Below, piece after piece: positions 41,296 through 51,779 of a stretch of 64,000 bases of DNA. A program made the position numbers and the translations under genes. Source of the DNA: Flavobacteriaceae bacterium (lineage in GTDB: Bacteria; Bacteroidota; Bacteroidia; Flavobacteriales; Flavobacteriaceae); the NCBI GenBank assembly GCA_021647885.1, contig JAKITV010000005.1, positions 23,069 to 87,068 of the forward strand, written 5' to 3'. Each line of letters starts with the position of its first letter. Within the stretch, counting starts at the first letter, position 1. A model generated the notes under the pieces. The model was not told the DNA's origin. It saw only the letters and a list, made by a program, of their open reading frames with translations, and did not search any database.

Positions 41296-41391
41296 TTCAA
41301 ATATAAAACAATCTTAACCTAAAAACTCCTACCTATATTATTTAAATAAATCCCAAATCCCATAATTTGTAATATTCTAACAACTAACAAC

Positions 41392-41907
41392 TCATAACTC
41401 ATCAATATCTTCTCTTAATTTTTTTAGTGCACCATATATTCTTTTTTCAACAGCTTTGGTAGAGATGTTTAAAAGCTCTGCAATTTCTTTATGTTTTTTA
41501 CCTTCAACTCTATTTAATAAAAAAGCGGTTCGTTGCCCTTCTGTTAAATTAGAGATGGCATTTTGTAACTTTTTCATGTATTCATTTTCTTCCAGCAAAA
41601 ATTCAGGGTTTTCGTTAGTGTAATCTTTAGGTTTGGTTTTTTGAAACTTTAAAACTACTTTTTGATGAGCAGCTTCGTTTAACATTAAGTTATTACCAAT
41701 AGTAAATAAATAAGATTTCGCTTTACTTGGAGTTACTTTTGCACAGTTTTCCCATAACTTAATAAAAGCATCTTGCACTTTGTCTTTAGGATTAAATGAC
41801 TCACCAAACTTATAATACAAAAAATTGTGAAGATCTTTGGAGTATTTACTAAATACTGAAGAGAAGATACTTTCATTACATACATTATCATTTATATCTT
41901 TATTCAT
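41392..41907 (-). CDS. ECF RNA polymerase sigma-70 factor
   Basis: DKVQDAFIKLWEN; LTEGQRTAFLLNRVEGKKHKEIAELLNISTKAVEKRIYGALKKLRE. Confidence 0.93.
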   Translation of the reverse strand: MNKDINDNVCNESIFSSVFSKYSKDLHNFLYYKFGESFNPKDKVQDAFIKLWENCAKVTPSKAKSYLFTIGNNLMLNEAAHQKVVLKFQKTKPKDYTNENPEFLLEENEYMKKLQNAISNLTEGQRTAFLLNRVEGKKHKEIAELLNISTKAVEKRIYGALKKLREDIDEL

Positions 41908-44222: not shown

Positions 44223-45551
44223 ATGTTTAATAATTTAAGCGATAAGTTAGATAAAGCCCTTCATGTACTAAAAGGTCATGGAAGTATTACAGAAGTTAAT
44301 GTTGCCGAAACCTTAAAAGAAGTGCGTCGTGCATTATTGGATGCAGATGTAAATTTTAAAATTGCCAAAGAATTTACCAATAGAGTAAAAGAAAAAGCAC
44401 TTGGGCAAAATGTACTTACCAATTTACATCCAGGTCAACTTATGGTTAAGATTGTTAAGGACGAACTTACCCAACTTATGGGAGGAGATGCCGAAGGTTT
44501 AGACTTGTCTGGCAATCCAACCATAATTTTAATGTCTGGATTACAAGGTTCAGGTAAAACCACGTTTTCTGGGAAACTTGCCAACTATTTAAAAAACAAG
44601 AAAACAAAGAAACCATTATTGGTTGCTTGTGATGTATATCGTCCTGCAGCAATCGATCAATTACATATAGTTGGCGAGCAAATTAACGTTGAGGTTTATA
44701 GTGACAAGGGGAATAATGATCCAGTGGCAATTGCAAAAGCTGGTGTTGCACATGCAAAAGCCAATGGTTATAATGTGGTAATTGTAGATACTGCTGGTCG
44801 TTTAGCTGTGGATGAAGTGATGATGAATGAAATTTCTAACATTCATAAAGCAATCCAACCACAAGAGACCTTGTTTGTTGTAGATTCTATGACTGGACAA
44901 GATGCTGTAAATACTGCAAAAGCTTTTAACGATATACTTAATTTTGAAGGTGTAATTCTTACAAAATTAGATGGTGATACTCGAGGTGGAGCAGCAATTT
45001 CCATTAAATCTGTAGTTAATAAACCTATTAAGTTTATTGGTACTGGCGAAAAGATGGAAGCTATAGACGTGTTCTATCCTTCACGTATGGCAGATCGTAT
45101 TCTTGGAATGGGAGATGTTGTATCTTTAGTAGAAAGAGCACAAGAACAGTTTGATGAAGAAGAAGCGCGTAAAATTCAAAAGAAAATTGCTAAAAATCAA
45201 TTTGGGTTTGATGATTTCTTAAAACAGATTCAGCAGGTCAAAAAAATGGGAAACATGAAAGACCTAATGGGCATGATTCCTGGAGCTGGAAAAATGATGA
45301 AAGACATCGATATTGATGACGATGCGTTTAAGGGCATTGAAGCCATAATCCATTCTATGACGCCAAAAGAACGCACAAATCCTTCAGTTTTAAATGCAAG
45401 CAGGAAAAAACGTATTAGTAAAGGATCTGGAACTTCGGTTCAAGAAGTGAATCAGCTTTTAAAACAGTTCAACCAAATGAGCAAGATGATGAAAATGATG
45501 CAAGGTGGAGGCGGGAAAAAAATGATGCAGATGATGCAGAATATGAGGTAG
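44223..45551 (+). CDS. ffh: Signal recognition particle protein Ffh
   Basis: LMSGLQGSGKTTFSGKLANYLK, VDTAGRLAVDEVMMNE, Met-rich C-terminal M domain. Confidence 0.97.
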   Translation: MFNNLSDKLDKALHVLKGHGSITEVNVAETLKEVRRALLDADVNFKIAKEFTNRVKEKALGQNVLTNLHPGQLMVKIVKDELTQLMGGDAEGLDLSGNPTIILMSGLQGSGKTTFSGKLANYLKNKKTKKPLLVACDVYRPAAIDQLHIVGEQINVEVYSDKGNNDPVAIAKAGVAHAKANGYNVVIVDTAGRLAVDEVMMNEISNIHKAIQPQETLFVVDSMTGQDAVNTAKAFNDILNFEGVILTKLDGDTRGGAAISIKSVVNKPIKFIGTGEKMEAIDVFYPSRMADRILGMGDVVSLVERAQEQFDEEEARKIQKKIAKNQFGFDDFLKQIQQVKKMGNMKDLMGMIPGAGKMMKDIDIDDDAFKGIEAIIHSMTPKERTNPSVLNASRKKRISKGSGTSVQEVNQLLKQFNQMSKMMKMMQGGGGKKMMQMMQNMR

Positions 45552-45558
45552 TTTTAGT

Positions 45559-45582
45559 AAACAGTCGCAGTCGCAGTTTTTA
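45559..45582. repeat. Left flank of the four-helix-bundle cassette: AAACAGTCGCAGTCGCAGTTTTTA
   Basis: Inverted relative to AACTGCGACTGAAAACTGTGACTGAAAACT at 45981-46010; 11-bp exact IR AACTGCGACTG. Confidence 0.8.
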
Positions 45583-45620
45583 GTAGCTACTTTTTTAAAA
45601 TTTAGAAATAATTAATATAA

Positions 45621-45992
45621 ATGGATTTCAAAAAACTATTAGCATATCAAAAGTCATTTGATTTGGCTATGTCTATTTTTGAAATTTCTAAATCATTCCC
45701 AAAGGAAGAAACCTATTCTTTAACAGATCAAATTAGAAGAAGTTCACGTTCTGTTTCTGCAAATATAGCTGAGTCTTATAGAAAAAGAAGGTACCCAAAA
45801 CACTTTATTAGCAAGCTTACCGATGCAGATGGAGAAAATTCTGAAACTTCTACTTGGTTAGATTATGCTCTGGCTTGTAACTATATTAAGAAAGAGGATT
45901 ACATTAAATGTGAAAATAAAGGAAAAGAAATAGGAAAATTAATAAATTTTATGATTAACAATCCAGATAAGTTCGGAGCTAACTGCGACTGA
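45621..45992 (+). CDS. Four-helix bundle protein (S23/23S rRNA-IVP-like, TIGR02436 type)
   Basis: [88 protein letters not shown]. Confidence 0.92.
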
Positions 45993-46010
45993 AAACTGTG
46001 ACTGAAAACT
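45981..46010. repeat. Right flank of the cassette AACTGCGACTGAAAACTGTGACTGAAAACT
   Basis: Encodes the terminal NCD* codons of the four-helix protein. Confidence 0.8.
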
Positions 46011-46018
46011 TTAAAAAC

Positions 46019-46897
46019 ATGACAATTTTAGACGGAAAGAAAACAAGCAACGACATTAAAGACGAAATTGCTGAAGCAGTAAAAGCATTAAAATCCAAAA
46101 GTAAAAAAACACCACACTTGGCTGCAGTTCTTGTCGGTACAGATGGAGCAAGTATGACTTACGTAAATGCAAAAGTAAAAGCTTGTGAACGCATTGGTTT
46201 TAATTCTACATTAATCGATTTACCTGAAAATACTTCAGAAGAGAATTTATTGGAAAATATTGAAAAACTCAACAATGATAACGATATCGATGGTTTTATA
46301 GTGCAACTTCCATTACCAAAACATATTGACGAACAAAAAGTTTTAATGGCTGTTAATCCAGACAAAGACGTGGATGGATTCCATCCAATAAATGTTGGTA
46401 AAATGACATTGGATTTACCTTGCTTTTTATCTGCAACTCCATTCGGGATTTTAGAATTGTTAGAACGCTATAAAGTGGAAACATCTGGAGCTAATGTTGT
46501 TGTTATAGGTAGAAGCCACATAGTTGGTCGACCTTTGAGTATTTTAATGAGCCAGAAACGAAAAGCTGGAAATGCAACAGTAACAGTTGCGCATAGTCGT
46601 ACTAAAAACTTATCTGAAATAACACAAAAAGCTGATATCATTGTTGCAGCTCTTGGTATTCCAGAATTTTTAACTGGAGATATGGTAAAAGAAGGTGTCA
46701 CAATTATTGATGTTGGAATTACTCGTGTACCTGACGAAACAAAACCTAGAGGTTATCGCCTTGCAGGAGATGTACATTTTGAAAGTGTAGGCAAAAAAGC
46801 TTCATTTATAACTCCTGTTCCAGGTGGTGTTGGACCAATGACAATTGCCATGCTACTAAAAAACACCTTGTTGGCTTGCCAAAGAAATAACAATTAA
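46019..46897 (+). CDS. folD: Methylenetetrahydrofolate dehydrogenase/cyclohydrolase
   Basis: [52 protein letters not shown] 46019 (MTILDGKK) preferred over the track start 45998, which lies in the repeat. Confidence 0.95.
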
Positions 46898-50073: not shown

Positions 50074-50105
50074 TACTTGTTTTTTTTAATTTTTAAGTTA
50101 TTTTT

Positions 50106-50144
50106 CAATCGTCAATCGTCAATCGTCAATCGTCAATCGTCAAT
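50106..50144. repeat. Tandem heptanucleotide (CAATCGT)x5 + CAAT
   Basis: Five perfect 7-bp units. Confidence 0.97.
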
Positions 50145-50148
50145 TGGA

Positions 50149-51666
50149 TTATTTCATTGCCTTTTTAAGAATCCCAAAAACAGCTCTTATAAAGGTTGCG
50201 CTTGTAAGCACTTTTACAATTGGATTTTGACGTGTACTTCGTCTTGAAGTTGTACGACTTTTAGTTTTTCGTTTCTCTAGTCGAGCATCTTCTTTAATTT
50301 TAAGAGCTTCGGCTTTTTTAATTTTTTCATTAAGTTTTTCGTAAGCACTTTCGCGATCGATGTCTTCGTTATACTTCATTACCAATTTAGAATCGTCGTA
50401 AAGTGCATTAAGTTCTTGTTTTGTTAAAACATCCATTCTGCTCATTGGAGCGCGCATCATTGTGGCTGCCAATGGTGTTGGTCGCCCTTTTTCGTCAAGT
50501 GCAGAAACAAGTGCTTCACCAATTCCTAGAGAGGTTAATATTTCGGCAGTATCGTAATATTCGGTGTCTGGATAGTTTTGTGCTGTGAGTTTAATGGCTT
50601 TTCGGTCTTTGGCTGTAAATGCACGTAAAGCATGTTGTACTTTTAAGCCTAATTGACTTAACACAGCTTCGGGAACATCAGTCGGATTTTGAGTCACAAA
50701 ATAAAGACCAACGCCTTTACTTCTAATTAATTTTACGATGCTTTCTATTTGATTTAACAATGCTTTTGAAGCTTCTCTGAAAATTAAATGTGCTTCATCG
50801 ATAAACATAATAAGTTCTGGTCGTCCAGAATCACCTTGCTCGGGAAAAGTTTCATAAATCTCCGCTAATAAACTCAGCATAAATGTTGAAAACAATTTTG
50901 GTCTATCCTGTATATCTGTTAAACGAATAATGTTTATATAACCACGACCATCACGAGTAGTTCTTAGCAAATCTTCTACATCAAAACTTTTTTCACCAAA
51001 AAACAAATCGGCACCTTGTTGCTCGAGTTCTACAATTTTTCGCAATATAGCTCCAGTTGAAGCTGTGGAAATCCTACCATATGCTTCTTCAAACTCTCCT
51101 TTGCCATGTTTAGTTGCGTATTGTAATACCTTTTTAAAATCCTTTAAATCTAAAAGCGGTAATTTATTATCGTCACAATATTTAAAAACAACGGCAACCA
51201 CTCCAGATTGGGCTTGTGATAAATCAAGAATTCGAGATAATAAAACAGGGCCAAATTCGCTTACGGTTGCTCGAAGCCTAACTCCATCTTCTTCAGAAAG
51301 TGACATTAGTTCTATGGGAAAATCTTTCGCTTCAAAAGGCAATCCAATTTTTTCATGGCGTTCATCTATTTTTGGATGCCCAGGACTGGGTTTTGCTAAA
51401 CCACTTAAATCACCTTTAATATCCATGAGCAGCACAGGGATTCCTTTTTCGCTTAAATTTTCGGCTAAAACCTGAAGCGTTTTTGTTTTTCCAGTTCCTG
51501 TTGCGCCAGCAATTAAACCATGACGATTCATGGTTTTTAGTGGTACTTTTACAAATGCTTCTTTTATGGTTTCACCATCTAACATCGCAGATCCTAGAGT
51601 GATAAAATCTCCTTTAAATGTATTTCCTTCTTTTATATGATTAAAGAATTCTTCGGTTCTGCTCAT
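50149..51666 (-). CDS. HerA-like/DUF853 ATP-binding protein
   Basis: LIAGATGTGKTKTLQVLAENL Walker A; LIMFIDEAHLIFREASKALL Walker B. ATG 51666 (MSRTEEFFNHI) preferred over 51729. Confidence 0.88.
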   Translation of the reverse strand: MSRTEEFFNHIKEGNTFKGDFITLGSAMLDGETIKEAFVKVPLKTMNRHGLIAGATGTGKTKTLQVLAENLSEKGIPVLLMDIKGDLSGLAKPSPGHPKIDERHEKIGLPFEAKDFPIELMSLSEEDGVRLRATVSEFGPVLLSRILDLSQAQSGVVAVVFKYCDDNKLPLLDLKDFKKVLQYATKHGKGEFEEAYGRISTASTGAILRKIVELEQQGADLFFGEKSFDVEDLLRTTRDGRGYINIIRLTDIQDRPKLFSTFMLSLLAEIYETFPEQGDSGRPELIMFIDEAHLIFREASKALLNQIESIVKLIRSKGVGLYFVTQNPTDVPEAVLSQLGLKVQHALRAFTAKDRKAIKLTAQNYPDTEYYDTAEILTSLGIGEALVSALDEKGRPTPLAATMMRAPMSRMDVLTKQELNALYDDSKLVMKYNEDIDRESAYEKLNEKIKKAEALKIKEDARLEKRKTKSRTTSRRSTRQNPIVKVLTSATFIRAVFGILKKAMK

Positions 51667-51749: not shown

Positions 51750-51779
51750 ACTGAAGACTGAAGACTGCGACTGTAAACT
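51750..51779. repeat. Solo ACTGAAGACTGAAGACTGCGACTGTAAACT repeat
   Basis: Shares the ACTGCGACTG core with the repeats flanking the four-helix-bundle gene. Confidence 0.8.

Follow-up and report, generated by a model that had tools for sequence, protein, structure and literature searches.

RAYTs are HUH transposases that act on REP hairpins. Structures of S23/IVP proteins have been available since 2006-2007, and we know of no function and no catalytic site for these proteins. An open reading frame (ORF) of the S23p family occurs within the 23S rRNA intervening sequence (IVS) of Coxiella (PMC4990558), and a passage of that paper that cites the structure paper describes the homologue 2gsc as a pentamer. 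Over-representation or dispersal of heptameric repeats has been described for Xanthomonas and Nostoc (PMC4692102), for Beggiatoaceae (TAACTGA; PMC4679880), and for Geobacter (PMC2700814), each time with a function or binding protein that was unknown. The excess in the first two genera concerns GGGAATC and GGGGA(C/T)T, respectively, and Xanthomonas carries 70-75 convergent inverted GGGAATC pairs per genome (PMC4692102). A term search of the text of that paper returned no mention of S23 or four-helix proteins, and no paper linking heptamer repeats to S23/IVP proteins was found in the open-access literature searched, which does not prove that such a link is new.

Here, the IVP family is paired with heptad repeats and each of its clades is given a predicted target word. 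This joins two open questions, the function of S23/IVP proteins and the puzzling heptamer repeats, and because a word is predicted for each clade, both become directly testable.

An IVP gene between inverted repeats at ffh-folD

The window, that is, the whole 64,000-nucleotide stretch of DNA analyzed, comes from a Flavobacteriaceae genome of 2.59 Mb in 67 contigs (87% complete). It carries an IVP gene between ffh and folD, bracketed by a repeat arm and its inverse (Table 1). The first-pass annotation had located both arms, as well as a gene-less copy of the repeat some distance away, and its coordinates and sequences for all three are correct; its reading that the right arm encodes the C-terminal NCD and the stop codon agrees with the translation of the gene. 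The window arms are degenerate, with units that mix 6- and 7-mers. When the element was folded as RNA, the two arrays paired in a long-range stem whose loop contains the ORF (z -3.3). No promoter or terminator was found within the element beyond chance.

Table 1 Features of the IVP element and its surroundings in the window
Feature	Position	Strand	Description
ffh	44223..45551	+	Codirectional neighbour, upstream side of the IVP gene
Upstream (5') repeat arm, CAGTCGCAGTCGCAGT type	45559..45582	-	Degenerate array of the ACTG word, read on the - strand
IVP gene encoding a 123-aa four-helix bundle	45621..45992	+	PF05635/TIGR02436 profiles; AlphaFold2 model
Downstream (3') repeat arm ACTGCGACTGAAAACTGTGACTGAAAACT	45981..46010	+	Upstream arm inverted; covers the final codons and the stop
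folD	46019..46897	+	Codirectional neighbour, downstream side; starts 8 nt past the downstream arm
Gene-less solo array, same word as the IVP arms	51750..51779	+	Upstream of a queE-like radical SAM gene

The repeat motif exceeds chance in the window and across the genome, so that the observation on which the earlier annotation was built stands. ACTGCGACTG with at most one mismatch occurs 5 times in the window versus 0.93 expected, a count reached in 1 of 100 shuffles, and 8 exact copies are present genome-wide, versus 0 for the reversed control. Two other heptad arrays were seen in the window: a near-perfect (CAATCGT)x6 array between two genes at 50098-50149, with a word different from that of the ACTG arrays, and a short array, AACAACTAACAACTCATAACTCATCAAT, at 41375-41406. 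No IVP gene with the CAATCGT word was identified in the window's genome.

Profile matches of 117.5 bits to PF05635 (cut-off 33.8) and 111.3 bits to TIGR02436 (cut-off 24) bear out the S23 family assignment made in the first pass. An AlphaFold2 model of the protein (pLDDT 97) has XCC0516 (2gsc) as its best PDB match (2gsc_B; TM 0.88, rmsd 1.1) and also matches 2rld and, more distantly, Avd of diversity-generating retroelement (DGR) ribonucleoproteins (4dwl, 8ub7, 8ub8). The window protein therefore belongs to PF05635/TIGR02436 both by profile scores above the curated cut-offs and by its 2gsc/2rld four-helix fold. DGR Avd profiles remained below their cut-offs (bAvd, 34.7 versus 40; DivGenRetAVD, 29.3 versus 80), and PHROG Avd gave a weak sequence match. 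The protein, a four-helix bundle, matched no transposase (including HUH/Y1) by profile or fold, and no defence-system family in PADLOC.

The genome holds four PF05635 genes, and the other three lack ACTG arrays; each has inverted or palindromic flanks of its own, built from its own words. The idea that one ACTGCGACTG terminal repeat is common to TIGR02436 genes is thus wrong already within this genome, and for the genus it was rejected on 30 PF05635 genes from five genomes, whose many words include TAAGACG, GATGACC, AACTAGA, GGTAAAG, GGAGACA, and AATAGAA. The first-pass annotation had named the absence of repeats from other TIGR02436 genes as evidence that would count against it; this absence is literally the case for the ACTG word and is not the case for the architecture. 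Elsewhere in the genome, a gene-less inverted ACTG pair fills the gap between two codirectional genes (L009, 1389-1510). What appears to be the equivalent site in other genera (L150, L158, and L171) has full IVP elements of another clade with another word. Across 464 kb sampled from the genome, lag 7 was enriched (14 versus 5), but so was lag 12 (16 versus 3).

A common architecture with gene-specific repeat words

The same layout, each time with its own repeat word, was found in most of the relatives examined, from flavobacteria to cyanobacteria and Xanthomonas. Two gene sets were used: 142 Flavobacteriaceae IVP genes from about 75 genera, and 77 genes drawn more widely from many phyla in GTDB with XCC0516 as the query. 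In a word-free test, the upstream flank of each gene was aligned to that gene's own downstream flank, reverse-complemented, with mismatched partners for comparison. Own flanks scored 26.6 versus 16.3 for mismatched ones in the 142-gene set (p 4e-59), with 85 of the 142 IVP genes above the mismatched 95th percentile compared to 14 of 293 control ORFs; in the GTDB set, the scores were 30.5 and 15.8.

Autocorrelation of the flanks had its maxima at 7, 14, and 21 nt in both gene sets. Period-7 arrays over a fixed threshold were present upstream of 114 and downstream of 111 of the 219 genes, versus 32 of the 293 control ORFs, and there was a period-8 minority (21 upstream and 22 downstream arrays); at the threshold used, about half of the flanks have no strong heptad array. 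Arms consist of about 4-5 units (medians 4.4-6.9). Upstream arms contained more G than C in 96 cases and less in 13, and downstream arms more C than G in 101 and less in 10, a bias which gives the element a fixed polarity. The arrays end a median of 13-15 nt before the start codon.

IVP elements are inserted in the sense orientation between codirectional genes. The IVP gene pointed the same way as both neighbours in 131 of 138 cases (p 2e-21) against a baseline of 0.60, defined as the 60% of gene triplets that are codirectional in sampled DNA of the window's genome, and in 53 of 71 cases in the wider GTDB set. The search for a phage origin gave one weak match only, without obvious arrays. On cyanobacterial plasmids (L179, L181, L183, and L186), IVP genes often adjoin integrase/tyrosine recombinase genes, and the IVP gene of a Pseudanabaena plasmid (L187), which has long AAAAGCT/AAAAGCC arrays, stands between cas6 and cas4.

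Repeat words follow protein clades

Words track the protein clade, including at unrelated sites. Many clades keep one site across genera, such as the clade with 18 genes in the largest site cluster, and descent in place accordingly accounts for part of the correspondence. The portion that vertical descent does not explain is captured by 9,419 gene pairs that share no homologous neighbour. Among these different-site pairs, flank similarity rose with protein identity, from ~19.4 below 50% to 23.1 at 50-60% and 26.2 at 60-80%, while an antisense control stayed flat. The two arms co-vary across unrelated sites, and the correlation of word similarity with protein identity at different sites was significant but small (Mantel r 0.115; 0 of 2,000 permutations). 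Cyanobacterial relatives that share 53% identity with the window protein have not kept the ACTG word and carry AGCAGGGG-type or other words.

Scattered through the genomes are gene-less copies of the word that belongs to the resident clade, both inverted pairs and solo arrays. A window-clade gene was present in 20 genomes, 16 of which had ACTGNNN arrays, and absent from 81, 23 of which had them (Fisher p 5e-5; medians 5.5 and 0), so that repeat copy number goes with presence of the gene, as the first-pass annotation had suggested it might; the reversed control pattern was also mildly associated with the clade (p 0.006), and the ACTG test is therefore not clean by itself. A cleaner case comes from the xanthomonads. 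GGGAATC heptads bracket the relatives of XCC0516, whose neighbours on the two sides read as the biotin carboxyl carrier and biotin carboxylase genes. Ten xanthomonad genomes with this clade, each with one or two PF05635 genes, contained 170, 276, 176, 77, 88, 103, 137, 72, 17, and 7 matches to three-unit GGGAATN arrays, whereas 13 genomes whose IVP genes belong to other clades contained 0-2 and the reversed control gave 0. One of the ten, Dokdonella fugitiva, has 19 array places, of which 14 are inverted pairs without a gene; all of these have the G-arm first, and the arms, usually of 4 units each, are 22-187 nt apart.

Presence, loss, and replacement at sites

Presence of the elements is sporadic, with empty, scarred, and remnant sites. 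Of 61 genomes sampled across the family, 9 had a window-clade gene at ffh-folD, as did one further congener; in other genera, the spacer is mostly 10-100 nt. The spacing comparison proposed in the first pass thus came out in favor of sporadic presence, and synteny of the gene at ffh-folD throughout the family was rejected. Only the 3' end of the IVP gene is left in the spacer of one congener (G002, L272), where an unrelated, long hairpin, TCATTCCTGCGAAGGCAGGAATCC...GATTCCTGCCTTCGCAGGAATGA, is attached to the remnant. In another (G001, L273), the place upstream of folD has no gene and arrays of other words, namely, four TTAAGAG and two CCAAATA units.

Elements are lost and replaced at their sites. 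The atpA-atpG site holds a full element in the window's genome and a 30-nt scar of array halves in one congener; other congeners carry another word there, in full or pseudogene copies, and gene-less heptad hairpins were seen in four other genera. A single site can hold different words and clades among related genera. No clean insertion boundary or target-site duplication was recognized at ffh-folD or atpA-atpG, where the relatives are scarred, remnant, or diverged, and no different-site IVP pair was more than 80% identical; every pair above 80% shares its site.

Elements within ribosomal RNA genes

One IVP gene of Azospirillum (L188) is located within 23S rRNA, with Rfam RF02541 spanning the locus, and has AGAGGAC/GGATGAC-type heptad arms on both sides. 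GACAGAT heptamers precede the S23p ORF of the Coxiella IVS (PMC4990558). Given these arms and heptamers, ribosomal IVSs and free-standing elements appear to be of one kind.

Interpretation and alternatives

We lean, without strong conviction, toward reading the window locus as a gene-bearing copy of a widespread element class in which protein and repeat form a RAYT/REPIN-like partnership, the protein being a pentameric non-transposase and ribosomal IVSs being one form of the element. The architecture itself, from a G-rich heptad arm through the IVP gene to an inverse C-rich heptad arm, is shown by the flank comparisons above. The IVP pentamer would bind arrays of its own word, perhaps with about one heptad per subunit, and would act in trans on array pairs as a RAYT does on REPINs, so that gene-less pairs could multiply or be maintained. 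Pairing of the arms in transcripts would place the ORF in a loop, which could make insertion into operons, or even rRNA, tolerable, as is known for ribosomal IVSs. Because the IVP protein has no catalytic site that we know of, copying or moving of arrays would need a host enzyme. We infer both the binding and propagation by the IVP protein and an RNA processing of the element. The Xanthomonas repeats lie in unusually stable contexts (PMC4692102), which fits maintenance better than active spread.

A broader form of this proposal is more tentative, and we put it forward as a possibility short of an expectation. IVP pentamers may be sequence-specific readers of tandem heptads, with ~one unit per subunit, and, aided by host enzymes, may generate, multiply, and maintain their own word genome-wide. 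The result would be a self-propagating repeat class that includes ribosomal IVSs, Xanthomonas GGGAATC, the Geobacter paired sites, and perhaps TAACTGA and the cyanobacterial STRR. If the propagation reading is true, these repeats spread without a transposase.

The main rival is a TRAP-like RNA regulon, which we consider rather unlikely. Here, the IVP pentamer would wrap array RNA, controlling its own mRNA via the arms and other transcripts via dispersed arrays, and the arrays would be kept by selection, not by selfish spread. Sense-only placement inside operons and the persistence of the same sites over genera fit a regulator well, and the fixed strand polarity, the arms of about 4-5 units, and the short distance from array end to start codon also speak for it, as does the proposal of the Geobacter authors that their four-/five-unit paired repeats are bound by a global regulator (PMC2700814). 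Sporadic loss and word replacement fit it poorly: presence is patchy, pseudogenes, scars, and remnants occupy the same sites, and one site has different words and clades in related genera. Moreover, the neighbouring genes in the published repeat sets have no common function (PMC4679880, PMC4692102).

The first-pass annotation had favored a transposon-like cassette in which the gene and its terminal inverted repeats jump together and gene-less copies are MITEs. Part of this was supported, since the gene makes up one unit with its inverted flanks, presence is sporadic, and gene-less derivatives exist; inverted ends, empty sites, and the several IVP copies of many genomes (4-16 in richer ones) would likewise suit a cassette. 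Active jumping was not supported. The protein has no transposase fold, recent gene copies at new sites are missing at the 80% identity level, target-site duplications were not recognized at sites that are scarred, remnant, or diverged in the relatives, and each xanthomonad genome has one or two genes against many gene-less arrays, and we regard this reading as improbable.

Retromobility like that of DGRs, with the IVP protein working as Avd alongside a reverse transcriptase on element RNA, would draw on the fold match to Avd in DGR ribonucleoproteins, the weak sequence matches to bAvd and PHROG Avd, and sense-only insertion. Of 24 genomes that bear IVP genes, 17 have no RVT_1 match, the window's own (87% complete) among them, which makes a reverse-transcriptase partner unlikely as a rule; a reverse transcriptase as the general mechanism is largely refuted, and we give this reading very little credence. 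Least credible of all are passive microsatellites, with heptamers made by polymerase slippage (a published proposal for heptamer excess, as reported in PMC4679880 and PMC4692102) and IVP genes there by coincidence: arms matched to each other, the word-clade link, fixed polarity and placement, and control ORFs mostly free of arrays refute slippage for the arrays beside IVP genes, although it could still hold for some solo arrays.

Comparison with known systems

The 23S rRNA IVSs with an S23p ORF in Coxiella and Leptospira share with the window element the protein family, a size of about 430 nt, inverted flanks that pair as a stem and leave the ORF in its loop, and heptamers (GACAGAT) that adjoin the ORF (PMC4990558). 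The window copy has such inverted flanks pairing around its ORF; unlike the IVSs, it and almost all others lie between protein genes and not in rRNA. None of the papers found reports dispersed gene-less pairs or clade-specific words for IVSs.

As in RAYT/REPIN systems (PMC3116915, PMC8049555), one trans-acting gene is flanked by and matched to its own repeat class, and many gene-less inverted pairs are present in the genome. Dispersed inverted pairs alongside a rare, near-single-copy gene were found for the GGGAATC clade and in part for ACTG, and a repeat class matched to the protein clade is seen in both the different-site Mantel result and the GGGAATN counts. The difference lies in the IVP protein, a four-helix bundle with no catalytic site known to us, and in the repeats, which are short tandem heptads. 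Avd of DGRs has the same fold and a related sequence, whereas most IVP genomes examined have no reverse transcriptase.

The GGGAATC word described in Xanthomonas (PMC4692102) is the same word that flanks IVP genes of the XCC0516 clade. G-quadruplexes were proposed for the heptamers in that study, whereas many other IVP words have no G-tracts, and the G-quadruplex was rejected as a general principle. TAACTGA repeats (PMC4679880) are likewise tandem units, and their word fits the ACTGNNN class. The four-heptad/octad paired sites of Geobacter (PMC2700814) also consist of tandem units, with 4-5 units in inverted pairs. We propose that the Nostoc, TAACTGA, and Geobacter repeats may be linked to IVP proteins.
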